From contig PMCA01000034.1 of NCBI GenBank assembly GCA_003153935.1, forward strand, positions 12,682-76,681: DNA of 64,000 nucleotides, given 5' to 3'. This DNA comes from Elusimicrobiota bacterium (GTDB lineage Bacteria; CAYTYR01; UBA6262). The position numbers and the translations under genes were made by a program. Within the stretch, counting starts at the first letter, position 1. The number at the start of each line of letters is the position of its first letter. This document shows positions 41,899 through 59,339 of the stretch, one piece after another. Below the pieces are notes generated by a model that had not been told where the DNA came from, searched no databases, and saw only the letters and a program-made list of their open reading frames with translations.

Positions 41899-42672
41899 AT
41901 GAAAGTAGTAATACTGGCAGGTGGTAAGGGGACCAGGATCAGTGAAGAAACTTTAACTATTCCCAAACCAATGATTGAAATAGGCAGCAAGCCGATTCTT
42001 TGGCACATAATGAAGATTTATTCACATTACGGGTTTAATGAATTTATCGTTTGTCTCGGCTATTTGGGTTATGTCGTTAAAGAATATTTCTCTCATTATT
42101 TTTTGCATATGAGCGATGTGACCATGGACCTGGCCAAGAATAAAATGCATATCCATAATACCGCATCGGAACCCTGGCAGGTAACACTGGTAGACACGGG
42201 GGCGGAGACCATGACCGCCGGCCGGATAAAAAGGATCGAGAAATATATAGGGACGGACCCCTTCTTAATGACTTATGGTGACGGCGTGGGGGATATTGAC
42301 CTTAAGGCCCTGGTTAAATTTCATCAGAAAAGCAAGGCTCTGGCCACGGTTACCGCGGTCCAGCCTTTAGGTCGGTTTGGCACTTTAGATATCAGTACTA
42401 CGGGTAAGGTTAATCATTTCCTGGAAAAACCACAGGGTGACAATAACTGGATCAATGCCGGGTTCTTTGTTTTACAGCCGGAAATTTTTAAGTACATTGA
42501 AGCTGATGACATAATATGGGAAAAAGAGCCGATGGAGAAACTGTCACGGGAAGGGCAGTTGACTGCTTACAAGCATCATGGTTTTTGGCGGCCAATGGAT
42601 GCCTTAAGGGATAAAATTGAACTGGAACGGCTCTGGCAGTCGGGTGAGGCCCCCTGGAAGATCTGGAAATAA
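41899..42672 (+). CDS. rfbF: Glucose-1-phosphate cytidylyltransferase
   Basis: A 257-residue nucleotidyltransferase with L-A-G-G-K-G-T-R-I near the start, then T-I-P-K-P-M-I-E-I-G and T-Y-G-D-G-V-G-D near residue 127. These are hallmarks of RfbF/DdhA, which makes CDP-glucose, the entry point to CDP-3,6-dideoxyhexoses. AGGGGGAA precedes ATG 41899 after an 83 bp gap in which I see no clear promoter. It is followed by rfbG. Confidence 0.94.
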   Translation: MKVVILAGGKGTRISEETLTIPKPMIEIGSKPILWHIMKIYSHYGFNEFIVCLGYLGYVVKEYFSHYFLHMSDVTMDLAKNKMHIHNTASEPWQVTLVDTGAETMTAGRIKRIEKYIGTDPFLMTYGDGVGDIDLKALVKFHQKSKALATVTAVQPLGRFGTLDISTTGKVNHFLEKPQGDNNWINAGFFVLQPEIFKYIEADDIIWEKEPMEKLSREGQLTAYKHHGFWRPMDALRDKIELERLWQSGEAPWKIWK

Positions 42673-42682
42673 GCAGGAGATT

Positions 42683-43666
42683 ATGGTGAACTTTTGGCGC
42701 AACAAGAGAGTACTGATAACCGGCAATGAAGGATTCCTGGGGTCTAATCTGACTCTAAAGCTGCTGGCTGCGGGCGCGCAAATAACCGGTTTGGATATAA
42801 GAGTGCGCCGGCCTGATACTATTTTTACCAGTAAAGACTATCAGGGGTTCAAGACTATTAAAGGCAGTGTGGCCGATTTCGCCTTGGTTAGGCGTTTAAT
42901 CAAGCAGAATAAGATTGAATTTGTTTTCCACCTGGCGGCCGAGGCCATTGTCGGACGATCGCTAAAAGATCCGTTAAATACATTTGCTTCTAATGTTGAA
43001 GGTACCTGGAATATCCTGGAAGCCTGCCGGCAATTGGGTACAGTGGAAGCGATCATTGTCGCTTCCAGTGATAAAGCCTATGGTAGCCATAAGATATTAC
43101 CCTATAAGGAAGATGCGCCATTGATTGGCGATCATCCTTATGATGTTTCCAAGAGCTGTGCCGACCTTATCGCCTATTCATATTTTCATACCTATAATTT
43201 GCCGGTGGCCGTGACCAGGTGCGGCAATATCTACGGGCCGGGCGACTTTAATTACAGTCGTATAATACCTGATGCGTTGCGCTGCCTTTACTATGGCCGG
43301 ACCCTGCTGATCCGCAGTGACGGCAGATTTACCAGGGATTATGTTTATGTTGATGACATCGTCAACGGGTATATGCTTTTGGCGGAAAAATTGAAGAAAC
43401 TGAAACTGGCAGGCGAAGCTTTCAATATCAGCGATGAAAATCCTATTTCCGTGCTCGCCTTGCTGGCGCAGATCAACATGCTTTCCGGTAGAAAACTGAA
43501 CTATAAAATACTGGACCGGGCTAAATACGAAATTAAAGATCAATATCTGGCAGCCAACAAAGCCAGAAGGATCTTAGGCTGGAAGCCGCAATTTAATCTG
43601 GATGAGGCTCTAAAAATAACTATGGCCTGGTATGAAAATTATTTTGGGACTGTTTTATGCCAATGA
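42683..43666 (+). CDS. rfbG: CDP-glucose 4,6-dehydratase
   Basis: A 327-residue SDR with I-T-G-N-E-G-F-L-G-S-N, S-S-D-K-A-Y-G near residue 128 (catalytic Asp/Lys arrangement of RfbG), Y-D-V-S-K near 153 and R-C-G-N-I-Y-G-P-G-D near 181. The product, CDP-4-keto-6-deoxyglucose, is the substrate of RfbH at 51284. ATG 42683 with AGGAGA at 42675-42680 is preferred over an upstream ATG inside rfbF. It overlaps the methyltransferase gene by 10 bases. Confidence 0.92.
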   Translation: MVNFWRNKRVLITGNEGFLGSNLTLKLLAAGAQITGLDIRVRRPDTIFTSKDYQGFKTIKGSVADFALVRRLIKQNKIEFVFHLAAEAIVGRSLKDPLNTFASNVEGTWNILEACRQLGTVEAIIVASSDKAYGSHKILPYKEDAPLIGDHPYDVSKSCADLIAYSYFHTYNLPVAVTRCGNIYGPGDFNYSRIIPDALRCLYYGRTLLIRSDGRFTRDYVYVDDIVNGYMLLAEKLKKLKLAGEAFNISDENPISVLALLAQINMLSGRKLNYKILDRAKYEIKDQYLAANKARRILGWKPQFNLDEALKITMAWYENYFGTVLCQ

Positions 43667-44793
43667 GGAAATGCAGAGTATGCGGCCATGAATTTTTTAA
43701 AGAGCCATTGCTGCGATATGAGAATATGCCCAAGGCCGCTCAGTTTTTACCGGACGCGAAATCGGTGGAAAACGAAAAGGGAGAAAATCTAGAAATATAC
43801 CAGTGTTCGGGTTGCGGATTGATTCAGCTAAGTAATGATCCTGTCCCATATTATAAGGAGGTCATACGTGCGGCGGCCTTTTCCGCAGAAATGAAAGATT
43901 TCCGCAACAAGCAATTCCAGAGTTTCGCACAGAAATATTCCCTTAAAGGAGAAAAAGTTATCGAGATCGGCTGCGGCCGCGGGGAATATCTGTCCATAAT
44001 GCAACAATTGGGCGTAGAAGCTTATGGGCTAGAATATGCGGAAGAAGCGGTGATGCAGTGCGTCAAGAATGGTCTAAAAGTTTCCCAAGGATTTATCCAA
44101 AGCGGTTCTGAAAGTTTAAAACACGCTCCCTTTAAGGGTTTTTTTATATTGAATTTTCTTGAGCACCTGCCTGACCCGAATTCAACTCTTAGGGGAATAT
44201 ATAACAACTTGATGAATGATGCTATAGGACTTGTTGAAGTGCCAAATTTTGACATGATTTTGCGGAAAAACCTTTTCTCCGAATTCATTGGCGACCATCT
44301 GTTTTATTTTACCAGGGAAACCTTAAATACAACTTTAAAACTTAATGGTTTTGAGATCCTGGAATGTGATGAAGTGTGGCACGATTATATAATTTCCGCG
44401 GTGGTTAGGAAAAGAGCCAAGATCGGCCTGGAACGTTTTTATAAAGATCAGGCGAAACTTAAAAATGAAATCGAAGAATATATTAACCGCTTCCAGGACA
44501 AAAAAGTAGCCATCTGGGGCGCAGGGCATCAAGCCCTGGCCGTGATTTCTTTAACAAATTTAACCGGTAAGGTTAAGTACGTTGTGGATTCCGCCGTATT
44601 TAAGCAGGGTAAATTTACTCCGGCTACGCATATCCCCATCGTTTCTCCCGATACGCTGGGCACTGATCCGGTCGGGGCGATTATAGTTATGGCGGCCAGC
44701 TATTCTGATGAAGTGGTGAAAATCATACAAGGGAAATTCGGGAAGAAGATAGCTATTGCCGTACTGAGAGATTTTGGCTTAGAAGAAGTTTAA
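43657..44793 (+). CDS. SAM-dependent sugar C-methyltransferase-like protein
   Basis: A 378-residue protein laid out like the NovU/TylC3 C-methyltransferase group: an N-terminal zinc-binding region (C-R-V-C-G near residue 5 and C-S-G-C-G near 50), a SAM-binding domain with E-I-G-C-G-R-G-E near 107 and a C-terminal domain with W-G-A-G-H-Q near 287. Known relatives methylate C3 of nucleotide-4-keto-6-deoxy sugars. It starts inside rfbG, so a CDP-4-keto sugar is a plausible substrate. Confidence 0.8.
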   Translation: MPMRKCRVCGHEFFKEPLLRYENMPKAAQFLPDAKSVENEKGENLEIYQCSGCGLIQLSNDPVPYYKEVIRAAAFSAEMKDFRNKQFQSFAQKYSLKGEKVIEIGCGRGEYLSIMQQLGVEAYGLEYAEEAVMQCVKNGLKVSQGFIQSGSESLKHAPFKGFFILNFLEHLPDPNSTLRGIYNNLMNDAIGLVEVPNFDMILRKNLFSEFIGDHLFYFTRETLNTTLKLNGFEILECDEVWHDYIISAVVRKRAKIGLERFYKDQAKLKNEIEEYINRFQDKKVAIWGAGHQALAVISLTNLTGKVKYVVDSAVFKQGKFTPATHIPIVSPDTLGTDPVGAIIVMAASYSDEVVKIIQGKFGKKIAIAVLRDFGLEEV

Positions 44794-44847
44794 CTGGTGG
44801 GACGCACAGTTAATAAATATTCCCTGGGAAGATGAGGAGAAAATAGC

Positions 44848-45918
44848 ATGGCGAAGGAACAAGAAAAGTTAAAAGCTGATGAACAGGAAAAAAGAAACCG
44901 GTTGAAAAATGAAAAACCTTATGTGTATAAGAAAATCATGCAATTCGATGAAAAAGTTAAAAAGGGTGAAAGTATAGCGATACTGCAGTTTCAATACAAT
45001 TACAAATGCAATTTCCGTTGCCAGCACTGTGACATTACCGGCCTGCGGGATAAAACGGGGGAAAAAAGAAGCTTTACGCCAAAAGACGTAAAGGAACTTT
45101 CGCGCCAGGCGGATGAAATGGGTCTGGCCCATATCGTGATCACTGGTGGTGAACCGCTGGTTTTCGCGGAATTTGACGAAATTGTTAAGGCCATAGACCC
45201 GCAAAAATTTTATATAACCTCTGATACGAATGGCTGGTTTTTAGATACGAAACGAGCAAAGCATCTCAAGGCCATCGGTATTGACAAAATCCAACTTAGC
45301 TTGGACAGCCTTAACGCAGCTGAACATGATGACTTTCGGCGCAGTCCTGGGTCTCACGAACGATGTTTAAAAGCCATTGATGCGGCTTTGGCCGCCGGTT
45401 TGAATATTATTATCCAAACCGTGGTTACCAAGCAAAGGGTACGTTCTCAGGAATTTATAGAATTTTTAGAATTTTTGAACGGAAAAGGTGTGGGCGTTTT
45501 TGTGACCTACGCGAAACCGGTCGGAGAATGGACAGGCAATTATGACGTTATGATCAATCGCGATGATATGGATTATCTGCGGGGGCTGGAGAAGAAATAT
45601 AATGTATTTACCCATCTGACCCCGTCTTACGGCCTCAATTTGGGCTGTATTGCCGTAAAAAGAATGGTTTCTATCACTCAGTACGGGGATGTGCTTCCAT
45701 GCCCGTATATCCATATTTCACTGGGTAATTTCTTTAAAGAGCCGCTAAAGGATATTATCGCCAGAGGCATGAAAATCAGATATTTTGGCGAATATCATGA
45801 TACCTGTTTTATAGCCGAGGATAGAAAATTCATAGAGGAAATAGAGGCTAAGAAGATATACGGCAAACCGCTTCCGGTTCCTTATACGGAAGTGTTTACG
45901 GAAGATGATTATATTTAG
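44848..45918 (+). CDS. Radical SAM protein, unknown substrate
   Basis: A 356-residue protein. A charged ~40-residue N-terminal segment is followed by the [4Fe-4S] motif C-N-F-R-C-Q-H-C (C-x3-C-x2-C) near residues 53-60, G-G-E-P-L near 98, and a C-terminal part with G-C near 269 and P-C-P-Y near 288 that may form a partial SPASM/twitch-type auxiliary site. Sugar-locus radical SAM enzymes are known to act in carbon-skeleton, dehydration or epimerisation reactions. Nothing here fixes the substrate. AGATGAGGAG lies upstream of the ATG. Confidence 0.8.
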   Translation: MAKEQEKLKADEQEKRNRLKNEKPYVYKKIMQFDEKVKKGESIAILQFQYNYKCNFRCQHCDITGLRDKTGEKRSFTPKDVKELSRQADEMGLAHIVITGGEPLVFAEFDEIVKAIDPQKFYITSDTNGWFLDTKRAKHLKAIGIDKIQLSLDSLNAAEHDDFRRSPGSHERCLKAIDAALAAGLNIIIQTVVTKQRVRSQEFIEFLEFLNGKGVGVFVTYAKPVGEWTGNYDVMINRDDMDYLRGLEKKYNVFTHLTPSYGLNLGCIAVKRMVSITQYGDVLPCPYIHISLGNFFKEPLKDIIARGMKIRYFGEYHDTCFIAEDRKFIEEIEAKKIYGKPLPVPYTEVFTEDDYI

Positions 45919-45928
45919 AGGGGGGAAA

Positions 45929-47434
45929 ATGAAGAGTCACGATAAATGGCCATTGTTCGTTTTCGAGATGGCCAATAATCATATGGGTGATGTAGTGCAC
46001 GGGATGAAGATCATCAGGGAAATCAGCCGGGTGTGCCAGGGATTTGATTTTAAATTTGCCTTTAAATTCCAATATCGGGATCTTGACACGTTCATTCATC
46101 CGGATTTCAAAAATAATCTTGAATATAAATATGTTAAAAGGTTTTCTGAGACAAAACTTAGCCAAGATCAGTTTAGAACGCTAAAGGATGAAGCGGTTAA
46201 AGAAGGTTTTGTTACTATGTGCACTCCGTTTGATGAGAATTCCGTTGATTTAATTGAAAAATTTGATTTCGACATTATTAAGATAGCCAGTTGTTCCTTC
46301 ACGGACTGGCCGCTGCTGGAAAGAATAGCAAGAACTAATAAGCCGGTTATTGCTTCGACGGCAGGCGCCTCCTTGGACGATATAGATAAAGTTGTTAGTT
46401 TTTTTACTCATCGGGACAAAGAATTTGCCTTAATGCATTGTGTCGCGGAATATCCTACTCTAAAAAATAATCTTCAATTAAATCAAATTGATTTGATGAG
46501 AGCGCGTTATCCTCAGGTCGTAGTCGGCTATTCCACTCACGAATCTCCGGATATGTATGAGGCTATCAAAGTGGCCATAGGGAAAGGGGCCAAGATATTT
46601 GAAAAACATGTTGGCGTCCAAACCGAAAAGTATAAATTGAATGATTATTCCGCTACTCCGGAGCAAGTTAAAAAATGGCTGGAGGCGGCCAGGGAAGGTT
46701 TGGAGATATGCGGGGTTTCAGGCAGCCGCATGGATTTTACGGAAAAAGAGTTATCCAGCCTGAGATCTTTAGGCAGAGGGGTTTTCGCCGCGCAAAATAT
46801 CAAAAAAGGTGAAAGAATAAACAGGCCCGAGGTATTTCTGGCCATACCTACGCAGGAAAATCAAATTATTGCCAATGATTTCTCAAAGTATGCGGAGTTT
46901 TACGCTACGGATAATATAAAGAAGAATGAGCCGATTCTTTTTAAAAATACTACTAGGATAGATAATAGAGAAAAGATTTATGCCATGGTTCAAAGCGTGA
47001 AAGAAGTTATTATGAAAAGCGGGATATTGGTCCCAAGCAGGCTGGATCTGGAAATTTCACACCATTATGGCATTGATAGGTTTTATGAATACGGATGTAC
47101 TTTAATAAATTTTGTTAACAGGGAATACTGCAAAAAACTTATAGTGGTATTGCCAGGGCAGAAGCATCCGGAACAATATCATAAGGTGAAAGAGGAAACT
47201 TTTCATGTTCTATACGGCGAGGTAATAATAATTCTTGACGGGAAAGAGCGGGTGTGCAAGCCGGGGGAAATAGTAACCGTGGAGCGCGGTATAAAACATA
47301 TATTTACCAGCAAAACCGGTGCCATAATAGAAGAAATATCTTCCACGCATTTCCAGGACGATTCATTCTATACCGCGCCGGAAATTGCCAAAAATAAAAA
47401 CAGAAAAACTCTCATTACTTACTGGTTAGGCTGA
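45929..47434 (+). CDS. NeuB-family synthase with SAF and C-terminal cupin domains
   Basis: A 501-residue three-part protein. Residues about 1-275 form a NeuB TIM barrel (A-N-N-H-M-G-D near 16, K-F-Q-Y near 45, G-Y-S-T-H-E near 194, F-E-K-H-V near 221). An SAF-like domain follows (about 280-345; R-S-L-G-R-G-V-F). Residues about 385-501 are a cupin with H-K-V-K-E-E-T-F-H and G-I-K-H-I-F. NeuB enzymes condense PEP with a six-carbon sugar. The usual G-P-D-H-x-A-S segment after E-K-H is replaced by L-N-D-Y-S-A-T, hinting at a different substrate. ATG 45929 follows GAGGGGGG. The region is visibly more A/T-rich than the his/trp part. Confidence 0.82.
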   Translation: MKSHDKWPLFVFEMANNHMGDVVHGMKIIREISRVCQGFDFKFAFKFQYRDLDTFIHPDFKNNLEYKYVKRFSETKLSQDQFRTLKDEAVKEGFVTMCTPFDENSVDLIEKFDFDIIKIASCSFTDWPLLERIARTNKPVIASTAGASLDDIDKVVSFFTHRDKEFALMHCVAEYPTLKNNLQLNQIDLMRARYPQVVVGYSTHESPDMYEAIKVAIGKGAKIFEKHVGVQTEKYKLNDYSATPEQVKKWLEAAREGLEICGVSGSRMDFTEKELSSLRSLGRGVFAAQNIKKGERINRPEVFLAIPTQENQIIANDFSKYAEFYATDNIKKNEPILFKNTTRIDNREKIYAMVQSVKEVIMKSGILVPSRLDLEISHHYGIDRFYEYGCTLINFVNREYCKKLIVVLPGQKHPEQYHKVKEETFHVLYGEVIIILDGKERVCKPGEIVTVERGIKHIFTSKTGAIIEEISSTHFQDDSFYTAPEIAKNKNRKTLITYWLG

Positions 47435-48024
47435 TGCTGACGATTGTCTGGGATGTTGATGATGTGCTTAATGACCTTATGCATGCCTGGTTTAAGCATA
47501 GCTGGTTAGCTGATCATCCAGATGGTAAAATCAGATACGAAGATTTGACGGGAAACCCGCCGCATCATTTATTAGGAATGACCAGACAACAGTATTTACG
47601 CTCACTCGATGCTTTCCGTAATTCCGCCAGGGGTCAAGCTATGCTCCCGAACGCGGCGCTTTTAAAATGGTTTCATGTTTACGGACATTTGGCCAGGCAT
47701 GTAGCTTTGACCAGCAGGCCGCTTAATACCGTGCCGCTTCTGTCGCAATGGGTTTTCCGGCATTTCGGGGTTTGGATCAGGACCTTCGCATTTGTGCCGG
47801 CGCGCGCTGATAAAGCTATTCCCTTTTATGACCGCGATAAACGCGGGTATCTGAAATGGCTGGCTAAAACCGATGTATTGGTGGATGATAGTACGGAGAA
47901 TATTAAAGACGCCAGGGATTTGGGAATAAAAGGCTTATTATATCCCAGGACCTGGAATCGAAGCGACTTGACGGTTGATCAGCTTTTAAGGATCTTGACG
48001 CAAGAGGTTAAAGCCAAAAAGTAA
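47434..48024 (+). CDS. HAD-superfamily phosphatase-like protein
   Basis: A 196-residue protein with the HAD motif I D-V-D-D-V near residue 7, a T-S-R segment near 94 as motif II and a motif III/IV-like V-L-V-D-D-S near 150. This resembles small nucleotidase or sugar-phosphate phosphatases. Its ATG overlaps the stop of the NeuB-cupin gene by one base. By analogy with nonulosonate-9-phosphate phosphatases, it could dephosphorylate the upstream product, but this is inference. Confidence 0.7.
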   Translation: MLTIVWDVDDVLNDLMHAWFKHSWLADHPDGKIRYEDLTGNPPHHLLGMTRQQYLRSLDAFRNSARGQAMLPNAALLKWFHVYGHLARHVALTSRPLNTVPLLSQWVFRHFGVWIRTFAFVPARADKAIPFYDRDKRGYLKWLAKTDVLVDDSTENIKDARDLGIKGLLYPRTWNRSDLTVDQLLRILTQEVKAKK

Positions 48025-48032
48025 AGGAAACC

Positions 48033-49832
48033 ATGATTAAATTATCCGACTATGTAATCAAATTTGTGGCAGAACAAAAAGTTAAACACATTTTCATGTT
48101 TCCCGGCGGCGGCGCCATGCATTTAGTTGATTCCGCCGGTAAATGTCCGGGTTTGGAATTTGTCTGTAACCTGCATGAACAGGCTTGCGCTATTTGTGCC
48201 GAGGCTTACAGCCAGTGTTCCGGCAATTTGGGGGTCGCTTTGGTGACCACCGGCCCTGGCGGCACTAATGCTGTTACCGGTGTAGCCGGAGCCTGGATCG
48301 ATTCAACGCCAATGATGATTTTCTCCGGGCAGGTTAAAAGGGCCGACCTGGCTGCCGGCCGCGGGGTACGCCAGATGGGTCCGCAGGAGATAGACATCAT
48401 TTCTATAGTTAAGCCAATTACTAAGTACGCCGTTACGGTAGATGATCCTGAAGATATCCGTTATCACTTGGAAAAGGCGTTGTCTCTGGCTAAAAGCGGG
48501 CGGCCGGGTCCGGTATGGCTGGATATCCCGTTAGACGTGCAATCAGCAATGGTCGATGAAAGAAGATTGAAAAGTTTTTCGCCTAAAGAGAAACCCAGGC
48601 TCACTAAGGCATTACGCGGTAAAATTACCAAAGCGATAGGACTTATTAATCAGGCTCAGCGGCCGGTGATAATTGCCGGTAACGGCGTGCGTTTAGCCGG
48701 CGCGTTAGCTGATTTTCGTGCACTTGCTGATTTTTTGGATATACCGGTGCTAACTACCTGGAAGGCTATTGATTTTCTTCCCCAGGATCACCGTTTATAT
48801 GCCGGCCGGCCAGGCATAATAGGACAACGCGGGGCTAATTTTGTACAACAGAACAGCGATTGCCTGATTATGCTGGGTGCGCGCATGGATCTTTTACAAT
48901 TAGCTTTTGACCATAAACATTTCGCTCGCGCAGCCAAAAAAATAATGGTGGAAATCGATCCCAATGAGATCAAAAAAATGACTGCTAAAATAGATTTGCC
49001 CATTTGCGCTGACGCGGGTTTAGCCATCAGGGAGTTTTTAAGAGCCGGAAAGAAGATAAAATCGCCGGATCGTTCACCCTGGATAAACCGCTGCCAGGAA
49101 TGGAACAAAGAATATCCCGTTATATTGCCGCAATATTGGGAAGAGGAGGATATAGTTAATGTTTATGTCCTGATCGATGTCCTATCCGACGCCTTAACCA
49201 AAAAAGACGTGGTAGTCCCGGGCAGCTCAGGCCAGTGCAGCGAAATATTTATGCAGTCATTCAGGGTCAAAGAGGGCCAACGTATTTTAAACACTCCGGG
49301 TTTAGGCGCCATGGGGTTTGGTTTGCCGGCCAGTATAGGCGCCTGTTTAGCTGCTGGCCAGCGCCGGACCATATGTATCAACGGCGACGGCGGTTTCCAA
49401 TTGAACATCCAGGAACTGGAAACCGTGCGCAGGTTAAATCTGCCCATAAAATATTTTATTTTAAATAATCACGGATACGCTTCGATCAAAGCTACCCAGA
49501 AAAATAGTTTTTCCGGGCATTATGTAGCCTGCGATGTTGCCAGCGGTTTAAGCCTGCCTGATATCGCCAAGTTAGCCAAGGCTTACGATATTAAGACCGC
49601 TAGCCTGGAAAATCATACTAATATCAGGGAAAAGATAAGGGAAATATTAGAAACCCCCGGTCCGGTTATCTGCAATGTTAATGTTTCTATAAGCCAGACG
49701 GTGGCGCCAAAAGTCATTTCCAAATTGAACCCCGACGGCTCCGTAGTATCGAAGCCCATGGAAGACATGTGGCCGTTTCTTGACCGTGAAGAGTTTAAGA
49801 AAAACATGATCATAAAGCCCTTAAAAGAATAA
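48033..49832 (+). CDS. Thiamine-diphosphate enzyme, acetolactate synthase-like (YerE-like candidate)
   Basis: A 599-residue protein in three ThDP-family domains: an N-terminal Pyr domain with the catalytic glutamate in H-E-Q-A near residue 50 and V-T-T-G-P-G-G-T-N near 71, a middle FAD/DHS-like domain, and a C-terminal PP domain with G-D-G-G-F-Q-L-N ... N-N (ThDP motif) near 451-478. It is single and catalytic-subunit-like, with no regulatory subunit nearby. Between rfbG and rfbH, the best-known parallel is YerE, which adds an acetyl-derived two-carbon unit to CDP-3,6-dideoxy-4-ketoglucose. Ordinary acetolactate synthase is less likely in this context but not excluded. Confidence 0.8.
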   Translation: MIKLSDYVIKFVAEQKVKHIFMFPGGGAMHLVDSAGKCPGLEFVCNLHEQACAICAEAYSQCSGNLGVALVTTGPGGTNAVTGVAGAWIDSTPMMIFSGQVKRADLAAGRGVRQMGPQEIDIISIVKPITKYAVTVDDPEDIRYHLEKALSLAKSGRPGPVWLDIPLDVQSAMVDERRLKSFSPKEKPRLTKALRGKITKAIGLINQAQRPVIIAGNGVRLAGALADFRALADFLDIPVLTTWKAIDFLPQDHRLYAGRPGIIGQRGANFVQQNSDCLIMLGARMDLLQLAFDHKHFARAAKKIMVEIDPNEIKKMTAKIDLPICADAGLAIREFLRAGKKIKSPDRSPWINRCQEWNKEYPVILPQYWEEEDIVNVYVLIDVLSDALTKKDVVVPGSSGQCSEIFMQSFRVKEGQRILNTPGLGAMGFGLPASIGACLAAGQRRTICINGDGGFQLNIQELETVRRLNLPIKYFILNNHGYASIKATQKNSFSGHYVACDVASGLSLPDIAKLAKAYDIKTASLENHTNIREKIREILETPGPVICNVNVSISQTVAPKVISKLNPDGSVVSKPMEDMWPFLDREEFKKNMIIKPLKE

Positions 49833-49884
49833 GAAAACCGTTTATCCGTGCGCGGCAGTAATTCATATGATAAAGAGGTAATTT

Positions 49885-50763
49885 GTGCGAGTATTTTTAA
49901 CCGGAGGGTCGGGATTTACCGGCCGTAATTTGCTTGAGCAGATGCGGGGCCGCTATGAAATACTGGCTCCCGGGCATAAAGAACTGGAATTGCTTGATGA
50001 GGATGCAGTCAAAAGTTTTATTAAAGGGAATAAAATTGATGTAGTAGTACATGCGGCTATTAAGCCGTTGCATCGCAATGCCAAAGACACGGTTGATTTA
50101 GTTAACAATAATATCCGGATATTTTTTAATATAGCCCGCAATAACGCATATTTTAAAAAGATGGTCTATATAAGCTCGGGTGCTATTTACGATAAACGTT
50201 ATTATCAACCTAAAATGAAAGAGGATTATTTTGATGCGCACGTGCCGGCTGATGATACGGGGTTGTATAAATATGCCGTGGCAAAATATATCGAGAAAGC
50301 TGATAATATAACAGAATTGCGGCCGTTCGGCATTTTCGGTAAAAACGAAGATTACGCTATCAGGTTTATTTCCAATATGATCTGCAAGGCTATTTTTGAT
50401 CTGCCTTTGACCATGCACCAGAACCGCAGGTTTGATTACCTGTATGTCAATGATCTGTCCCAGGTGGTCGAATATTTCATTGAACATAACGGCCGGTATA
50501 AAGCCTATAACGTTACGCCGGATGATTCCATAGAACTGTATCAATTGGCGCAGCTGGTATTGAGAGTTGCCGGAAAAGACTTGCCGATAGCGGTAGTCAG
50601 GGAAGATATGGGACCGGAATACACTGGGGATAACACCCGGTTGCGTAAGGAGATGCCGGGTGTCCTGTTTACTCCGTTCGAAACCGCGGTAAAGGAATTG
50701 TATGATTGGTATCTTGCCAACCGGCAAATGATCGATAAAAATGTGTTGCTGGTGGATAAGTAA
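49885..50763 (+). CDS. NAD-dependent epimerase/reductase (extended SDR)
   Basis: A 292-residue SDR with F-L-T-G-G-S-G-F-T-G-R-N near the start, S-S-G-A near residue 95 and the Y-A-V-A-K pair near 131, followed by R-P-F-G-I-F-G. Its place after the ThDP enzyme suggests a C4-ketoreductase finishing a CDP-dideoxysugar (YerF- or RfbJ-like role), but the sequence does not prove it. GTG 49885 has AGAGG at 49873-49877. Confidence 0.75.
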   Translation: MRVFLTGGSGFTGRNLLEQMRGRYEILAPGHKELELLDEDAVKSFIKGNKIDVVVHAAIKPLHRNAKDTVDLVNNNIRIFFNIARNNAYFKKMVYISSGAIYDKRYYQPKMKEDYFDAHVPADDTGLYKYAVAKYIEKADNITELRPFGIFGKNEDYAIRFISNMICKAIFDLPLTMHQNRRFDYLYVNDLSQVVEYFIEHNGRYKAYNVTPDDSIELYQLAQLVLRVAGKDLPIAVVREDMGPEYTGDNTRLRKEMPGVLFTPFETAVKELYDWYLANRQMIDKNVLLVDK

Positions 50764-50792
50764 GGGGAAATCTATGAAACAAGAAAAGATCC
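50762..50792 (+). repeat. Direct repeat upstream of gtrA (copy of the rfbH start region)
   Basis: A 31 bp stretch containing AAGGGGA, an ATG and the first codons matches 51274-51304 at 27 of 31 positions. Here it encodes a 7-codon reading frame (M-K-Q-E-K-I-Q, ATG 50774, stop 50795-50797) whose stop overlaps the gtrA start. Confidence 0.75.
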
Positions 50793-50793
50793 A

Positions 50794-51264
50794 ATGAACC
50801 GTTTTAAGGAGAAATTAGCGCAGGTAAGCGGTAACCATGGGATGAAAATGCGTTTTGCCATGGTGGGCGCCTGGAATACGGTTTTTGGTTACGGCGTGTT
50901 TTGGTTTTTGGATAATTTTTTCGCTGCTAATTTGAAATCACGAGTTGCGGCCTATATGTGGGCAACTGCGCTTAGCCAGGTTACAGCAGTTATTAATGCG
51001 TTCATTTTTCATAAATATGTAACCTTTAAATCACAGGTTAGAGGTTCGGGAATTGTACTAGAATTCTTTCGTTTCTGTTTGACATACGTAGTTACTTTTT
51101 TTCTGGGTCTGTTATTAATGCCCTTTTTTGTGGAAGTGTTTTCTTTCGATCCGAAAGTATCCGCCGCCTTAATTATTGCCATTTGCACGGCAGTTAGCTA
51201 TTTTGGGCATTTTAAGTTTTCCTTTAATCAACCAGGTAAAAACAAAGGGACAGGCGATCAGTAG
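50794..51264 (+). CDS. GtrA family flippase-like membrane protein
   Basis: A 156-residue protein with four membrane segments (about residues 20-40, 47-68, 85-108, 119-137) and the GtrA-type F-A-x-V-G-A-W-N-T-V-F-G-Y-G near the start. GtrA proteins help transfer lipid-linked sugars across the inner membrane for later attachment to surface polymers. No good ribosome binding site directly precedes ATG 50794. A 7-codon mini-frame with a strong site ends in an ATGA overlap with it, suggesting coupled translation. The gene is bracketed by the 31 bp direct repeat. A GtrB-type glycosyltransferase lies two genes on. Confidence 0.88.
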   Translation: MNRFKEKLAQVSGNHGMKMRFAMVGAWNTVFGYGVFWFLDNFFAANLKSRVAAYMWATALSQVTAVINAFIFHKYVTFKSQVRGSGIVLEFFRFCLTYVVTFFLGLLLMPFFVEVFSFDPKVSAALIIAICTAVSYFGHFKFSFNQPGKNKGTGDQ

Positions 51265-51273
51265 ATAAGCAAA

Positions 51274-51304
51274 GGGGAAGTCTATGAGTCAGGAAAAGAT
51301 CCTG
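51274..51304 (+). repeat. Direct repeat at the rfbH start
   Basis: This is the partner of 50762-50792 (27/31 identical). It contains the AAGGGGA ribosome binding site, ATG 51284 and the first codons of rfbH (M-S-Q-E-K-I-L). This copy leads into a full gene, so it is the probable original. Confidence 0.75.
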
Positions 51305-52594
51305 CGTAATGAGATCCGGAAATTGGTGAAAAAATATTACGCGGTTAAACCTAAAGAAAGGTTTATTCCCGGCCAGACGTACGTTAATTATGCCGGCCGC
51401 GTATATGATGAAAAAGAATTAGTTTCGCTGGTGGATTCGTCTTTAGATTTCTGGCTTACCGCTGATAAATATGCCAGGGAGTTCGAACGAAAACTGGCTG
51501 CTTTCCTGGGAGTTAAATATACGCTGCTGACTAATTCCGGTTCCTCGGCTAATTTATTGGCTATTTCCGCCCTAACTTCACCCTTGCTTAAAGAAAGACA
51601 ATTGAAACCGGGTGATGAAGTGATAACCACGGCCTGCGGTTTTCCTACTACCTTGAATCCGATCCTGCAAAATAACCTGGTCCCGGTTTTCATCGATGTC
51701 GAGCTGGGAACATATAATATCAGGACTGACCTGCTGGAAAAAGCCCTTAGTGGGAAAACTAAGGCTGTTTTCGTGCCACATACTTTGGGAAATCCTGCAG
51801 CTATAGAGGTTATTTCCAGTTTTTGCCGCAAACATAACCTGTGGTTCGTGGAAGACAATTCCGACGCTCTCGGGTCAAAGTATAAAGGAAAATATACCGG
51901 AACCTTCGGCCATATCTCTACGTTTAGTTTCTACCCCGCGCATCATATCACCATGGGGGAGGGCGGCGCTTTAGCCACTAATGATCCTTTGTTACGGCGA
52001 ATAATTTTATCTTTCAGGGATTGGGGCCGTGATTGCTGGTGCGAGCCGGGTCATGATGAAACATGCCAGCGGAGATTTTCCTGGCAATTGGGCCAGCTCC
52101 CGTTCGGATATGACCATAAATATATATATTCGCATATCGGGTATAACCTGAAGGTGACTGATATGCAGGCTGCCATAGGGGTAGCCCAGTTGAAAAAATT
52201 GCCGGCCTTCATCAGGGCCCGGAAAGATAATTTTGCGTATCTGAGCAAAATATTCAAGAAACATGATAATTATTTTGTCCTGCCACAACCTACCAGGCAC
52301 GCTGATCCGAGCTGGTTCGGTTTTCCGATAATGGTGAAAGATAAAGCTCCTTTTATCAGGGCAGACATCGTCAACCACCTGGAGAAGAACAAAATTGCCA
52401 CCCGCATGCTTTTTGGAGGGAATTTAACCAAACAGCCAGCCTATGCAAATGTGAAATACAGGATAGCGGGAAAACTAGATAATACTGATATGGTGATGAA
52501 TAACTTATTCTGGATAGGCGTCTATCCCGGCATAACCAAAGAAAAACTGTCGTATATTAACAAAATCATCATTGAATTTATGGAGCAACTATGA
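51284..52594 (+). CDS. rfbH: CDP-4-keto-6-deoxyglucose 3-dehydrase (E1), RfbH/DdhC family
   Basis: A 436-residue protein of the PMP/[2Fe-2S] dehydrase family that removes the C3 hydroxyl to form CDP-3,6-dideoxyhexoses. The PLP-lysine position is histidine (H220, in P-A-H-H-I-T-M-G), as required for the dehydrase rather than aminotransferase reaction. Three expected cluster cysteines are C251, C253 and C261 (C-W-C-E-P-G-H ... T-C). The fourth, normally at 193 in E-D-N-C-D-A-L-G, is serine here (E-D-N-S-D-A-L-G). The E3 reductase partner (RfbI type) is not in the window. Its start overlaps a duplicated copy of its own leader. Confidence 0.9.
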   Translation: MSQEKILRNEIRKLVKKYYAVKPKERFIPGQTYVNYAGRVYDEKELVSLVDSSLDFWLTADKYAREFERKLAAFLGVKYTLLTNSGSSANLLAISALTSPLLKERQLKPGDEVITTACGFPTTLNPILQNNLVPVFIDVELGTYNIRTDLLEKALSGKTKAVFVPHTLGNPAAIEVISSFCRKHNLWFVEDNSDALGSKYKGKYTGTFGHISTFSFYPAHHITMGEGGALATNDPLLRRIILSFRDWGRDCWCEPGHDETCQRRFSWQLGQLPFGYDHKYIYSHIGYNLKVTDMQAAIGVAQLKKLPAFIRARKDNFAYLSKIFKKHDNYFVLPQPTRHADPSWFGFPIMVKDKAPFIRADIVNHLEKNKIATRMLFGGNLTKQPAYANVKYRIAGKLDNTDMVMNNLFWIGVYPGITKEKLSYINKIIIEFMEQL

Positions 52595-53523
52595 AAAAGA
52601 TATCGATCATTTCCGGAGTCTATAATGAGGAGCAGACCGTAAACGAGGTGTATGAAGTAATTAAAGGCATATTTGCCGGCTTAAAAGGCAAGTATAACTA
52701 TGAACACATTTTCTTGGATAACTGTAGTACTGATAATACCTTGAAAATCCTCAAAGAGATAGCCGGCAGGGATAAGAACATCAAAATCTTATCTTACTCT
52801 AAAAATTTTGGACCGATAAAAAGCGGATTTGTGGGTTTTGTGCACGCCACTGGCGATGCGGTTATTGGGTATGAAGCCAATCTAAAAGACCCTCCAGAAC
52901 TAATTACTGAATTTATTAAATACTGGGAAGACGGCTATGAAGTAGTCTATGGCGTGAGGAATAAAACGCAGGATAATTTCCTGATGCTGTTCATGCGCAA
53001 GCTGTTTTATAAACTGGTTGATCTGTTGAGTGACGAACCATTACCGCAGAATGTCGGTGGATTCAGTTTGGTGGATCGCCAAGTGGTGAACGAACTGGTT
53101 AAAATTAACGATTATAAACCCTATGTCCGCGGGTTGATCAGCACTATCGGCTTCAAGCAGATCGGCATAAACTATGAAAGAAGGGCCAGGCCCCGGGGCA
53201 GCTCAAAGAGTAATTTAGGATACTTAGTGGACTTCGCAATCAATGCTTTCGTCAGCTATTCCATCGTGCCGATCAGATTTTGCACTTATCTGGGCATAGT
53301 GCTGGCTAGTTTAAGTTTCCTGCTGGCTGCCGCCTATGCTATTATCAAAATGTTTATCTGGAACATCCAGGCTCCCGGCATTGCCACAGTTATTGTGCTT
53401 ATCTTGTTTTTCTCTGGCATACAGTTGTTCTTCCTTGGGGTGATCGGCGAATATATCGGGGCCATTCATTCACAGGTGCGCCAGAAGCCTTTTGTGGTCA
53501 TCAAAGAGAAAATAAATATTTAA
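52591..53523 (+). CDS. Family 2 glycosyltransferase, GtrB/DPM1-like
   Basis: A 310-residue protein with an N-terminal GT-A domain (V-Y-N-E-E near residue 9, D-N-C-S-T-D near 43, and an E-x-N-L-K-D-P segment near 93 in place of the usual D-A-D-L-Q-D-P) and two C-terminal membrane helices (about 230-253 and 262-285). It is typical of bactoprenyl-glucosyltransferases that work with GtrA. It overlaps rfbH by ATGA. The substrate is probably one of the nucleotide sugars made by this locus. Confidence 0.88.
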   Translation: MKKISIISGVYNEEQTVNEVYEVIKGIFAGLKGKYNYEHIFLDNCSTDNTLKILKEIAGRDKNIKILSYSKNFGPIKSGFVGFVHATGDAVIGYEANLKDPPELITEFIKYWEDGYEVVYGVRNKTQDNFLMLFMRKLFYKLVDLLSDEPLPQNVGGFSLVDRQVVNELVKINDYKPYVRGLISTIGFKQIGINYERRARPRGSSKSNLGYLVDFAINAFVSYSIVPIRFCTYLGIVLASLSFLLAAAYAIIKMFIWNIQAPGIATVIVLILFFSGIQLFFLGVIGEYIGAIHSQVRQKPFVVIKEKINI

Positions 53524-53542: not shown

Positions 53543-53571
53543 TTGACAGTTGCCGTTTTTTGGGCTATAAT
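53543..53571 (+). promoter_or_regulatory. Consensus sigma70-type promoter
   Basis: TTGACA (53543-53548) and TATAAT (53566-53571) are both perfect hexamers with a 17-base spacer, in the 84 bp gap before the Wzz-type gene. Initiation near 53578 would give a leader of about 30 nt containing GGGAGGGGA. It is the strongest promoter match in the window. Confidence 0.8.
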
Positions 53572-55468: not shown

Positions 55469-55491
55469 CAGTGAATACAAAGGATGTGACG

Positions 55492-56463
55492 ATGAAAATT
55501 TTAATAACTGGAGCAGCCGGATATATCGGGTCGGTGCTTACTAAAAACCTATTGGATCAAGGATACCAGGTCAGAGGTCTGGATTGCCTGAACTTTGGCG
55601 GAGAGTCCCTGCTGGGGGTTTACTCCCAACGGAATTTTGAGTTCCTTAAAGGAGATATTCGCAGAAAAGATGACGTGGTCAAGGCTTTACGGGGTGTTGA
55701 CGCGGTGGTGAACTTGGCGGCGATCGTGGGTGATCCGGCTTGCGCCAAACAACCCGAAGTAGCTAGAGAAACAAATTGGGAAGCGGCTAAAATGTTATTT
55801 GACCTCTCGCAAAAGTCCGGTCGGGTCAAGAGATTCGTTTCCGCTTCCACCTGCAGCAATTACGGTAAAATGTCCGGGACTGGTTACTTAAATGAAGAAT
55901 CCCCTTTGAATCCCGTATCTTTATACGCGGAACTTAAAGTGCAATTCGAGCGCTATATGTTAAGCGCGAAAAAAGTGAAGGGGTTTGCTACCACCTCCTT
56001 GCGGTTTGCCACCGCTTTTGGCCTGGCTCCGAGGATCAGGTTTGATCTGACCGTAAATGAGTTCGTTAAAGAAGCGGCCCTGGGCCGGGAACTGGTTATA
56101 TATGGTGAACAATTCTGGCGGCCATATTGCCATGTTTATGATATCGCTAGAGCCTGCCAGCTGGTATTGGAGAGCAATGTACAGAAAGTTGACCGGCAGG
56201 TATTTGGCGTAGGAGATACCAAGGAGAATTACCAGAAGAAAATGCTGGCTGAAGAGATCACTAAAATAATACCGGCGGCGAATATCCGTTTTGTCCATAA
56301 AAATGAAGACCCGCGCGATTATCGCGTGGATTTCAGTAAGATCCGGCGAACGCTGGGTTTTAAAATTGAGAGAAATGTACCATTTGGCATGCGCGAATTA
56401 TACGCCTGCATTAGAGACGGCATTATTCAAGAACCGGACTCCCAGCGCTATAAGAATGTGTAG
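55492..56463 (+). CDS. NAD-dependent epimerase/dehydratase (extended SDR)
   Basis: A 323-residue SDR with G-A-A-G-Y-I-G-S near the start, A-S-T-C-S-N-Y-G near residue 120 and Y-A-E-L-K near 145. A cysteine lies in the position often filled by Ser/Thr in front of the tyrosine. It resembles sugar-nucleotide reductases or epimerases of surface loci. It does not look like the LegB-type dehydratase expected upstream of LegC. ATG 55492 (AAGGA about 8 bases before) is preferred over GTG 55471. Confidence 0.75.
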   Translation: MKILITGAAGYIGSVLTKNLLDQGYQVRGLDCLNFGGESLLGVYSQRNFEFLKGDIRRKDDVVKALRGVDAVVNLAAIVGDPACAKQPEVARETNWEAAKMLFDLSQKSGRVKRFVSASTCSNYGKMSGTGYLNEESPLNPVSLYAELKVQFERYMLSAKKVKGFATTSLRFATAFGLAPRIRFDLTVNEFVKEAALGRELVIYGEQFWRPYCHVYDIARACQLVLESNVQKVDRQVFGVGDTKENYQKKMLAEEITKIIPAANIRFVHKNEDPRDYRVDFSKIRRTLGFKIERNVPFGMRELYACIRDGIIQEPDSQRYKNV

Positions 56464-56470
56464 GTAATTT

Positions 56471-57622
56471 ATGATCCTGCTTTCTGAGCCTTTTTTTGGC
56501 GGTAAGGAATGGAAATACGTCAAGGAATGTATCGATACTGCCTGGGTATCTACCGCCGGTAAATATGTGGAACGTTTTGAACGGGATATCTGCGCTTATA
56601 CCGGGGCGGCCAATGCCGTAGCCTGTATGAACGGCACTTCAGGTTTACAAATTGCGCTACTACTGGCCGGGGTTAAACCTGGAGACGAAGTTATTGTTCC
56701 CACTTTGACTTTTATCGCTCCGGTCAACGCGATTCGTTACGTACAGGCGGAACCGGTCTTTATGGATTGCGATGACTATATGAATATTTCCGCGGAGAAA
56801 TTGGACGAGTTCTGCCGGCGGGAATGTCTGCTTACCAAAGCCGGGTTAAAGAACAAGAAAAGCGGGAAAATAATTAAAGCCGTGATCCCGGTGCATATTT
56901 TCGGTAATCCTTGCCTCCTTGATCTGATCATGAAGACCGCGGGTAAATATAAATTGAAGGTGATTGAAGACGCAACTGAAAGCCTGGGTACGTATTTTAC
57001 TTCAGGCAAATATGTGAACAAGTTTACCGGCACTATAGGAGATTTTGGAGTTTTTTCATTTAACGGGAATAAGATCATTACTACCGGGGGCGGAGGCATG
57101 ATCGTGTCCTGTAACCGCCGGGAAGCGGAACAGGCTAAGTATCTTACCACGCAAGCCAAAGATGATCCTATTAGATATGTGCACCATCAGATCGGTTATA
57201 ACTTCCGTCTAACTAATATTCAGGCCGCTTTGGGCGTGGCCCAACTGGAGCAATTGGAGCGGTTTATTCAAATAAAGAAAAAAAATTATAAGCTTTATGA
57301 AAAAGGTTTAGAAAATATCGCAGGATTGACCTTGCTGGGGGTGCCGGCGGAAACTCGGCCTAATTACTGGTTTTACTCGTTGCTGGTTGACAAAAAAGCA
57401 TTTGGTTTGGACCGGGAGCAATTAATGAAAAAATTGCAGGAAAAGAAGATCCAGGCCAGGCCGATATGGTATTTAAACCACTGGCAAAAGCCTTATCGTC
57501 ATAATCAAAGCTACAAAATAGAGAAAGCCTGCTGGTATTGGGAGCGGGTATTGAATATACCCTGTTCCACAGGATTGAAGCCGCAGGAAATTCAGAGCGT
57601 GATCACGGCGATCACCCGCTAA
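56471..57622 (+). CDS. legC: LegC-family sugar-nucleotide aminotransferase
   Basis: A 383-residue DegT/DnrJ/EryC1/StrS enzyme with G-T-S-G-L-Q near residue 56, the PLP lysine in S-F-N-G-N-K-I-I-T-T-G-G-G-G near 201 and V-W/Y-H-H-Q-I-G-Y-N-F-R-L-T-N near 241. The F-N-G-N-K motif is the form seen in LegC aminotransferases, which aminate the C4 keto group in the legionaminic acid route. The genes that follow fit this pathway, but LegB, the dehydratase before it, is not in the window. Confidence 0.85.
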   Translation: MILLSEPFFGGKEWKYVKECIDTAWVSTAGKYVERFERDICAYTGAANAVACMNGTSGLQIALLLAGVKPGDEVIVPTLTFIAPVNAIRYVQAEPVFMDCDDYMNISAEKLDEFCRRECLLTKAGLKNKKSGKIIKAVIPVHIFGNPCLLDLIMKTAGKYKLKVIEDATESLGTYFTSGKYVNKFTGTIGDFGVFSFNGNKIITTGGGGMIVSCNRREAEQAKYLTTQAKDDPIRYVHHQIGYNFRLTNIQAALGVAQLEQLERFIQIKKKNYKLYEKGLENIAGLTLLGVPAETRPNYWFYSLLVDKKAFGLDREQLMKKLQEKKIQARPIWYLNHWQKPYRHNQSYKIEKACWYWERVLNIPCSTGLKPQEIQSVITAITR

Positions 57623-57631
57623 GGGACTGTT

Positions 57632-58690
57632 ATGGAAAAAATACAAAAGATATTTATAAAACCCGACAGGAACATCAATGCGGCCTTGAAACAGATCGAC
57701 GAATCGGCGGAGAAGATCCTGGTCGTAGTAGGGCCCCATGACCAGCTGATAGGCACCCTGACTGACGGTGATATAAGGCGTTGGATCTTAAAGGGGGGAA
57801 GTCTGCAGGTTCCTGTATCCAGGGTAATGAATAGAACTCCGCGTTGCCTGAGAGAAGGATATACGGCTGACGAAGCTAAAAAATTAATGGTTACCAATAA
57901 GATCGAATGCCTCCCGGTGGTTAATAAAGCTGGAGTGGTAATTTCCGCTATCCGTTGGGTAGAGTTATTTGAAACCAGGTTCACTAAACACAGTACAATT
58001 GACGCGCCCGTAGTGATCATGGCTGGCGGTGAAGGTACACGCCTGGCGCCTTTTACCAAAGTTTTGCCGAAACCGCTATTACCGGTGGGTGAACAGCCGA
58101 TCATTACCTTGATCATAGATAAGTTTGTCGAGTTTGGCTGCGAGAAGTTTTACCTGTCATTGAACTATAAAGCCAGCATTATTAAAGCTTATTTTCACGA
58201 CCTGCATCCTAAATATCATCTGGAATATATCTATGAGGAAGAGCCGCGGGGGACTGCGGGCAGCCTGCAGATGATGAAAAAGACCCTGAAAACTTCTTTT
58301 TTTGTCAGTAATTGCGATATTTTAATTAACGCGGATTATGCCGATATCCTGCACTTTCACCAAACCAGAGGGAACGCCATTACTTTAGTCGGTTCGGTGA
58401 AACACTATGTTATCCCGTACGGGGTGTGCGAAATAGGCGCCAAAGGGGTATTAAAGAAAATCCAGGAAAAACCGGAACAGGATTTACTGGTGAATACAGG
58501 CTTATATATTCTGGAACCGGAAGTACTTAAGGATATCCCAGTACGCGGCGTGTATCATATCACCGATCTTATCAGCAAGTATTTGCGCCGTAACAAAAAG
58601 GTAGGGGTTTATCCGGTTTCAGAAAAATCGTGGTTGGATATGGGCCAGTGGGAGGCTCTGCAGGATATGGTAAAAAGGCTGGGAGTATAA
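57632..58690 (+). CDS. ptmE: CBS-domain nucleotidyltransferase, PtmE-like
   Basis: A 352-residue protein with a tandem CBS pair (about residues 1-118, with G-T-L-T-D-G-D-I-R-R-W near 45) fused to a nucleotidyltransferase (G-G-E-G-T-R-L-A-P-F near 132, K-P-L-L-P-V-G near 148). This architecture is that of PtmE, the glucosamine-1-phosphate guanylyltransferase that starts the GDP-linked legionaminic acid pathway. Position between LegC- and NeuD-like genes supports this, although nucleotide specificity cannot be proven from sequence. Confidence 0.85.
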   Translation: MEKIQKIFIKPDRNINAALKQIDESAEKILVVVGPHDQLIGTLTDGDIRRWILKGGSLQVPVSRVMNRTPRCLREGYTADEAKKLMVTNKIECLPVVNKAGVVISAIRWVELFETRFTKHSTIDAPVVIMAGGEGTRLAPFTKVLPKPLLPVGEQPIITLIIDKFVEFGCEKFYLSLNYKASIIKAYFHDLHPKYHLEYIYEEEPRGTAGSLQMMKKTLKTSFFVSNCDILINADYADILHFHQTRGNAITLVGSVKHYVIPYGVCEIGAKGVLKKIQEKPEQDLLVNTGLYILEPEVLKDIPVRGVYHITDLISKYLRRNKKVGVYPVSEKSWLDMGQWEALQDMVKRLGV

Positions 58691-58691
58691 T

Positions 58692-59339
58692 ATGAGTAAA
58701 ATACTCTTAATAGGCGCCGGCGGTCATTGCCGGGTAGTTCTGGATACTTTGTTTTTACTAAAAAATTATCAGGTTACCGGTATTATTGATCGGCAGGATA
58801 AGATGGGGCAAAACCTATTTGGAGTCCCAGTAGTTGGCACAGACGATAAGTTAAAAGCCTTCCGGGAAAAGGGAATTAAGTATTGCTTTATAACAGTCGG
58901 CAGTGTTGGGGATCCAGCCCTGAGAGTGGCCCTTGGCCGGAAAGTGATAAAAATGGGGTTTCAATGTCCCAATATCATCAGTCCGGCGGCTGTTGTGTCA
59001 AAATTCGCAGAAATGGGTACGGGTAATTTCGTTGCTCCTGGAGTGGTGATCGGCCCCGGAACGGTGTTGGGTAATAACTGTATAATCAATACCGGAGTTG
59101 TAGTAGACCATGATTGCCGGCTGGGAGATTACGTTCATTTGGCTCCCGGGGTTACCATCAGCGGCGGGGTAAAGATCGGGGATCATAGCCATGTTGGCAC
59201 CGGAGCCTGTGTGATCCAGGGAATAACTATCGGTACTGATGTGCTGATAGGCGCGGGCAGCGTGGTAGTGGGAAACATTGGCAATAAGATCATAGCCTAC
59301 GGCAATCCCTGCCGGAAAGTTAGAAAAAATAATGGGTAA
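58692..59339 (+). CDS. NeuD/PglD-family acetyltransferase
   Basis: A 215-residue protein with an N-terminal Rossmann-like domain (G-A-G-G-H near residue 8) and C-terminal hexapeptide repeats forming a left-handed beta helix (D-H-D-C near 139, then G-V-T-I-S-G-G-V-K-I-G). In this gene order it could be the N-acetyltransferase (LegH role) acting after LegC, or a sialic-acid O-acetyltransferase. It overlaps the next gene by 8 bases. Confidence 0.85.
   Translation: MSKILLIGAGGHCRVVLDTLFLLKNYQVTGIIDRQDKMGQNLFGVPVVGTDDKLKAFREKGIKYCFITVGSVGDPALRVALGRKVIKMGFQCPNIISPAAVVSKFAEMGTGNFVAPGVVIGPGTVLGNNCIINTGVVVDHDCRLGDYVHLAPGVTISGGVKIGDHSHVGTGACVIQGITIGTDVLIGAGSVVVGNIGNKIIAYGNPCRKVRKNNG

Follow-up and report, generated by a model that had tools for sequence, protein, structure and literature searches.

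Higher sugars with long branches have been known for decades, and to our knowledge the source of the branch has never been clear. The ketosugar CDP-3,6-dideoxy-4-ketoglucose is the product of the rfbF, rfbG and rfbH enzymes, and NeuB enzymes condense phosphoenolpyruvate (PEP) with an aldehyde sugar to give a 3-deoxy-2-oxo-4-hydroxy acid. YerE-like enzymes, which use thiamine diphosphate (ThDP), decarboxylate a 2-oxo acid and add the acyl unit to the ketone of CDP-3,6-dideoxy-4-ketoglucose; YerE takes pyruvate as the donor, 4-hydroxy-2-oxo acids are the preferred donors of ErwE, and MygE of Mycobacterium gastri accepts C3–C8 acids (PMC12247030). The present analysis concerns a 64,000-nt stretch of contig PMCA01000034.1 (assembly GCA_003153935.1) from an Elusimicrobiota bacterium (hereafter, the window; coordinates are window positions unless preceded by a locus number). 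Within it, the gene run at 41899–53523 quite probably encodes a single pathway to a CDP-linked 3,6-dideoxyhexose with a long branch, a sugar of the gastriose, caryophyllose or erwiniose kind for a surface polysaccharide, with a NeuB-cupin fusion protein and a HAD-superfamily phosphatase as the donor arm.

The yersiniose A pathway (YerE; PMC12247030) resembles this locus in its ThDP family, in the rfbFGH-type CDP-3,6-dideoxy-4-ketoglucose and in a reductase-like short-chain dehydrogenase/reductase (SDR) that comes afterwards. Whereas YerE takes pyruvate, the window adds an adjacent donor synthase (NeuB-cupin with HAD), a C-methyltransferase and a radical SAM enzyme. The erwiniose (ErwE) and caryophyllose (MMAR_2332) pathways are similar in building a long branch from a 4-hydroxy-2-oxo acid; in erwiniose-type clusters, however, a pyruvate aldolase is expected, as in locus L109 of our collection, and the NeuB-isomerase fusion of the window would be another route to the same class of donor. 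Caryophyllose is 3,6-dideoxy-4-C-(1,3,4,5-tetrahydroxyhexyl)-hexose with a CH2 at C2' (PMC5706390), as predicted by PEP-derived donor chemistry. In M. marinum, deletion of MMAR_2331, of the YerE-like gene MMAR_2332 or of MMAR_2333 in each case causes accumulation of a lipooligosaccharide (LOS-II) precursor without caryophyllose (PMC5706390). The mycobacterial locus L240 has genes for a family 2 glycosyltransferase (GT2), a ThDP enzyme and a NeuB protein in succession, and by analogy with this order MMAR_2331 may encode NeuB.

The same cassette is found in the gastriose pathway (MygE) of M. gastri, a species that typically carries a C4-branched 3,6-dideoxyhexose in its surface lipid (Gilleron 1993, as cited in PMC5706390). 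The M. gastri genes for NeuB-cupin, ThDP and HAD proteins overlap one another and are accompanied by rfbF and rfbH, and the NeuB-cupin and ThDP proteins are 59% and 48% identical, respectively, to those of the window. The branch in M. gastri is 1,3-dimethoxy-4,5,6,7-tetrahydroxyheptyl, which would equal a decarboxylated eight-carbon ulosonic acid, as from PEP and a pentose. The locus differs from the window in its HAD family and its methyltransferase families, and no radical SAM enzyme of the window family was found in it.

The genes of the window run are as follows.

41899–42672, + strand: rfbF, glucose-1-phosphate cytidylyltransferase, acceptor arm (TIGR02623, 417 bits; cut-off 300)
42686–43666, + strand: rfbG-like sugar-nucleotide 4,6-dehydratase, acceptor arm (best model TIGR02622, 227 bits; cut-off 278)
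43657–44793, + strand: sugar C-methyltransferase-like protein of the MycC/TcaB9/TylC3 type, tailoring (PDB 4rv9, 4e2x; Pfam)
44848–45918, + strand: radical SAM/SPASM enzyme, tailoring (Pfam Radical_SAM and SPASM; conserved cysteines)
45929–47434 (reading frame open from 45905), + strand: NeuB-cupin, predicted PEP-condensing ulosonate synthase with a D-lyxose-isomerase-fold domain (PDB 3g8r, 398 bits; structural model; conserved catalytic residues)
47434–48024, + strand: HAD-superfamily phosphatase with a nucleotidase-like fold (structural model and motif residues)
48033–49832, + strand: YerE-like ThDP carboligase (JanthE, PDB 8rph, 403 bits; tree; conserved motif)
49885–50763, + strand: SDR/epimerase family protein, probable branch-ketone reductase in the role of YerF (Pfam Epimerase; 28 relatives in clusters)
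50794–51264, + strand: GtrA-like membrane protein (PF04138)
51284–52594, + strand: rfbH, CDP-4-keto-6-deoxyglucose 3-dehydrase, acceptor arm (PRK15407, 712 bits; cut-off 423)
52591–53523, + strand: family 2 glycosyltransferase, last gene of the run (PF00535)

Five colinear open reading frames (ORFs) with almost no spacing occupy 43657–49832 on the + strand, and the enzyme families named for them in the original prediction were confirmed. The methyltransferase ORF overlaps the rfbG-like one by 10 bp, NeuB-cupin and HAD overlap by 1 bp, and 8 bp separate HAD from the ThDP gene; from rfbF to GT2, neighbouring genes are separated by at most 54 bp or overlap slightly. Synthesis genes for the YerE-type acceptor flank the five genes on both sides, with the rfbG-like member scoring below its cut-off. 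The separation of rfbH from rfbFG was likewise seen as described, and the interval additionally holds the SDR and GtrA genes. A genome search found a single close copy of rfbH. The window 'rfbG' is a putative divergent or functionally related 4,6-dehydratase. For NeuB-cupin, the ATG at 45929 is more likely to be the start than 45905, since homologues begin there. An Rfam search found no RNA element. Just 5' of a Wzz-like gene at 53608 lies a perfect sigma-70-type consensus (TTGACA-17-TATAAT, 53543–53571), which marks a likely new transcription unit and is consistent with the run ending after GT2.

The association of NeuB-cupin with the ThDP enzyme was evaluated by scanning 84,980 species genomes with a NeuB-cupin profile. 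Among the 345 relatives returned, the best 80 loci were examined; these span distant phyla, including Nitrospirota, Omnitrophota, Chloroflexi, Cyanobacteria and Patescibacteria, as well as archaea and Mycobacterium. A ThDP gene is present in 74 of them, a count inflated by the selection of the loci through NeuB, and it usually lies directly downstream of NeuB-cupin. The other components are found less uniformly (rfbH in 53 loci, rfbF in 49, HAD in 36, radical SAM in 32 and methyltransferase in 31), with a recurring order of rfbF-rfbG-rfbH-NeuB-HAD-ThDP-SDR-Nudix-methyltransferase-radical SAM. A Nudix protein (27 loci; for example L056:14127-14588) and a B12-binding radical SAM protein (12 loci; L046:16401-18000) also recur in NeuB-ThDP clusters, and the window cluster has neither.

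In the reverse test, on 245 Nitrospirota genomes, a ThDP protein of at least 53% identity was found in seven, and NeuB-cupin was directly upstream in all seven; a more distant ThDP protein occurred in 17 genomes, none of which has NeuB-cupin there. One additional close NeuB-cupin lies at a contig end that bears a ThDP fragment. Across 198 Mycobacterium genomes, NeuB-cupin and the ThDP orthologue co-occur in the same four, 57 bp apart. On viral contigs selected by ThDP, NeuB-cupin adjoins a ThDP gene of at least 45% identity in 20 of 21 cases, the exception being a short contig. Distances among NeuB and among ThDP proteins are correlated (r 0.59, with shuffles reaching 0.11 at most), which is supportive and confounded by species relatedness. 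A search of plasmids with NeuB-cupin returned distant NeuB matches only. The linked carbohydrate pathway foreseen in the original prediction, combining PEP condensation, dephosphorylation and ThDP-dependent C–C bond formation, is thus supported, and in relatives the genes are neither scattered nor parts of unrelated known pathways.

The ThDP protein comprises three TPP domains (Pfam), and its closest solved structure is JanthE (403 bits), with the top acetolactate synthase at 273 bits. The GDG...N ThDP-binding motif and Glu49 are conserved across the family. Taken together, the window enzyme is a predicted YerE-like carboligase and not an acetolactate synthase.

NeuB-cupin carries a PF03102 NeuB domain (152 bits) followed by Cupin_2 (Pfam), and its structure was predicted with a mean local confidence (pLDDT) of 90.8. 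Its closest PDB entry, 3g8r, is an uncharacterised protein of Chromobacterium violaceum, 54% identical by structure alignment. The metal-binding His pair and PEP-binding residues (His212, His235, Lys126 and Glu233) are conserved in 97 sequences. The protein shares the NeuB fold and active-site residues with 3g8r and with the nonulosonate synthases NeuB, LegI and PseI, and differs from these synthases in its C-terminal isomerase-fold domain and in a predicted product that goes to a ThDP enzyme rather than to CMP activation; neither the NeuB_NnaB cut-off (142 bits against 400) nor that of PseI (132 against 340) is reached. NeuB is expected to yield a 4-hydroxy-2-oxo acid, the class of donor favoured by long-branch YerE-like enzymes.

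The C-terminal cupin matches D-lyxose and D-mannose isomerases over its full length, both in sequence and in predicted structure. The top fold matches are 2y0o and 7nzp, and superposition on 2y0o gave an E value of 8.9e-12 and a root-mean-square deviation of 1.8 Å over 166 columns. These isomerases (2y0o, 7nzp and 3kmh) have in common with the window domain the cupin fold throughout, with the extra elements of their family, and a C-terminal motif; in contrast to them, the window domain is fused to NeuB. Of the metal ligands of the isomerases (His-x-His, Glu and His), the positions His426, Glu431 and His465 are invariant in the NeuB-cupin family, whereas the first position usually holds Gln, giving Gln-x-His in place of His-x-His, and His in some members. 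From the modelled fold, the fused domain could supply an aldose to the NeuB domain. Although Pfam gives no match for the HAD ORF, its product was modelled with confidence as a deoxyribonucleotidase-like HAD fold (pLDDT 96), and the motif residues D7, D9, T93, K136 and D152 are all conserved among 34 relatives. In mycobacteria and some proteobacteria other HAD families replace the window type, which fits a generic dephosphorylation step.

The methyltransferase has a zinc-binding N-terminus, Methyltransf_23 and the C-terminal domain of sugar C-methyltransferases (Pfam), and resembles sugar 3-C-methyltransferases (4rv9, 4e2x); its zinc ligands Cys6, Cys9, Cys50 and Cys53 are conserved in 39 sequences together with His214. 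The CxxxCxxC motif and C-terminal cysteines of the radical SAM enzyme are conserved in 38 sequences. Both enzymes also accompany rfbGH and ThDP in loci in which no NeuB-cupin was found (L135, L137, L138 and L144), so that the acceptor sugar or the final product is their probable substrate. Single radical SAM and methyltransferase sequences used as queries against viral contigs gave nothing usable; a scan with a radical SAM profile succeeded, and the viral homologues are linked to ThDP, rfbH and methyltransferase genes.

Gene content and linkage, phylogeny, protein folds and residue conservation were established directly, and from these we infer every reaction of the proposed pathway, as well as isomerase activity and chain length. 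In the acceptor arm, glucose-1-phosphate would be converted to CDP-3,6-dideoxy-4-ketoglucose by rfbF, rfbG and rfbH. In the donor arm, the isomerase-fold cupin would turn a ketose into an aldose of the D-lyxose or D-mannose type, which may carry a phosphate. Condensation of this aldose with PEP by the NeuB domain would yield a 4-hydroxy-2-oxo acid, namely a 3-deoxy-2-ulosonic acid, from which HAD would strip phosphate. The YerE-like enzyme would then decarboxylate the ulosonic acid, and the acyl anion would attack the CDP sugar at its C4 ketone. C1' of the branch would be the former keto carbon and C2' a CH2 out of PEP; a pentose as the aldose would give a C7 chain. The SDR would reduce C1', a branch-ketone reductase role known for a paulomycin octose ketoreductase (PMC4753412); the methyltransferase and radical SAM enzyme would modify the product.

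Beside YerE-like enzymes that have no NeuB-cupin neighbour, a different candidate maker of 2-oxo acids is often present. In L109, genes for 4-hydroxy-2-oxovalerate aldolase and acetaldehyde dehydrogenase, both passing curated cut-offs, directly follow rfbF-rfbG-ThDP; a plain NeuB adjoins the YerE-like gene in L110, as does a cupin-less NeuB in the mycobacterial loci L240 and L242. Downstream of another YerE-like gene, L108:12780-15999 encodes an aldolase of the HpcH type, an SDR, a dehydroquinate-synthase-like protein and a HAD resembling KdsC; a dehydroquinate-synthase-like gene also adjoins ThDP in viral loci. A PanB-like enzyme is the neighbour in 21 viral loci: the homologue of this ketopantoate hydroxymethyltransferase at L196:9798-10736 (326 bits) comes directly after the YerE-like gene, and the arrangement is alike in the 20 others. 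Its position next to ThDP suggests a one-carbon-extended 2-oxo acid as the putative donor. HMGL-like aldolases take this place in eight viral loci. In about nine more (L203:6394-7625, L208:7618-8004), the YerE-like gene is next to genes for a DJ-1/PfpI protein, a small HAD-like protein and a cupin-like protein of 227 residues that matches no Pfam family; this class shows no evident donor chemistry where other viral loci carry a 2-oxo-acid maker.

The viral neighbour classes (NeuB-cupin, PanB, HMGL and DJ-1) cover 70 of 80 loci with zero overlap and track the ThDP tree, requiring 21 changes against 48 in shuffles; in this tree the NeuB-cupin pairing arose more than once. We lean towards a general scheme with the YerE-like ligase as a fixed core, in which the branch on a common CDP-ketosugar owes its length and shape to one of several interchangeable makers of 2-oxo acids (a NeuB-isomerase fusion, a plain NeuB, a 4-hydroxy-2-oxovalerate aldolase or a PanB-like enzyme). 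The NeuB ulosonic acids would be consumed as acyl-anion donors and never become glycan sugars, and phages would carry and swap the modules. In all, 358 viral contigs, which may contain host DNA and near-duplicates, match the ThDP profile (L161–L239 among the loci) and often carry rfbH-like and SDR genes as well; branched-sugar synthesis seems widespread in phages.

It could be argued that the ThDP protein is a diverged acetolactate synthase, or another pyruvate enzyme unrelated to sugar branching, and that the ulosonic acid of NeuB-cupin serves some other use. The protein does match an acetolactate synthase model strongly (TIGR00118, 412 bits), yet it lies under every acetolactate synthase cut-off listed and is far nearer to JanthE. 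Acetolactate-synthase-like copies (31–34% identical to it) are encoded elsewhere in the same genome, and rfbFGH are its constant company, so that this explanation is very improbable; a housekeeping acetolactate synthase is ruled out by the scores and the separate copies. We regard as equally far-fetched the proposal of the original prediction that a foreign, self-contained five-enzyme pathway was inserted between rfbFG and rfbH. The window order does depart from the commonest one, with rfbH displaced downstream. However, rfbF, rfbG and rfbH accompany NeuB-ThDP in most relatives and would supply the acceptor that YerE-like enzymes require (PMC12247030), so the block is hardly a pathway of its own. 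Nor is there any break in composition or gene content at its borders: G+C is 43.6% in the five genes, 45.0% in rfbF-rfbG and 42.8% at 49.8–56.5 kb, the shift away from 50% begins at about 33 kb, well before the block, and the run continues from rfbF to the glycosyltransferase without large gaps. Composition and the constant rfbFGH company rule out a foreign insertion.

A more serious, though still unlikely, alternative is that NeuB-cupin and HAD make a free sialic-acid-like ulosonic acid that is CMP-activated and enters the same polysaccharide, while the ThDP enzyme separately adds a short C2 branch of the yersiniose type from pyruvate, the genes being neighbours only through the shared polysaccharide. 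L112:4298-7393 and L113:6212-9498 encode distant NeuB-cupins (44–45%) without ThDP, followed by HAD and a PseF-like CMP-ulosonate cytidylyltransferase. These genes form an apparent CMP-ulosonic-acid cassette; the product of the NeuB-cupin family is thus not always a ThDP donor, and the HAD and cytidylyltransferase there support a free ulosonic acid as the NeuB-cupin/HAD product. Cytidylyltransferases also lie just downstream of the window in the same genome. These are accounted for, however, by a separate canonical NeuB and NeuC-like epimerase at 59332–61493. ThDP-linked loci have no cytidylyltransferase close to NeuB-cupin, which itself falls far below the NeuB_NnaB cut-off, and direct NeuB-(HAD)-ThDP adjacency over many phyla, with mutually exclusive modules beside ThDP, would be unexpected from mere co-membership. 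Besides these two loci and the inflated forward count, several observations weigh against the proposed long-branch pathway: no ThDP gene accompanies NeuB-cupin in a small number of loci (L040, L073 and L102 among them), most members have Gln where the isomerases have His as the first metal ligand of the cupin, the nearest folds of HAD are nucleotidases and its family occurs in just 36 of the 80 loci, and the rfbG-like protein misses its cut-off.

The region at 55471–61493 encodes an aminotransferase, a CBS-nucleotidyltransferase, an acetyltransferase, the canonical NeuB (59332–60336) and the NeuC-like epimerase (60333–61493), and CMP-type cytidylyltransferases are found just past the window end (L246:1492-2139). 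It is a predicted second pathway, of the legionaminic-acid type. CMP activation of the NeuB-cupin product at the window locus is disfavoured, the nearby cytidylyltransferase belonging with the canonical NeuB at 59.3 kb.

The original prediction knew of no described sugar pathway with the five-gene set. This holds for the NeuB-isomerase donor arm, which was not found in the searchable literature, but not for the ThDP type, as the framework of YerE-like branching of a CDP-ketosugar is known (PMC12247030). No link between NeuB and YerE was found in that literature, which excluded the primary papers on ErwE and JanthE and the survey of YerE-like clusters. If correct, the proposal would offer natural enzyme pairs for tertiary-alcohol synthesis. 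It would predict a specific donor route, an ulosonic acid from a NeuB-isomerase fusion, and explain the CH2 at C2' of caryophyllose; it would also provide a rule for reading such loci, by which the gene next to the YerE-like enzyme predicts the branch.

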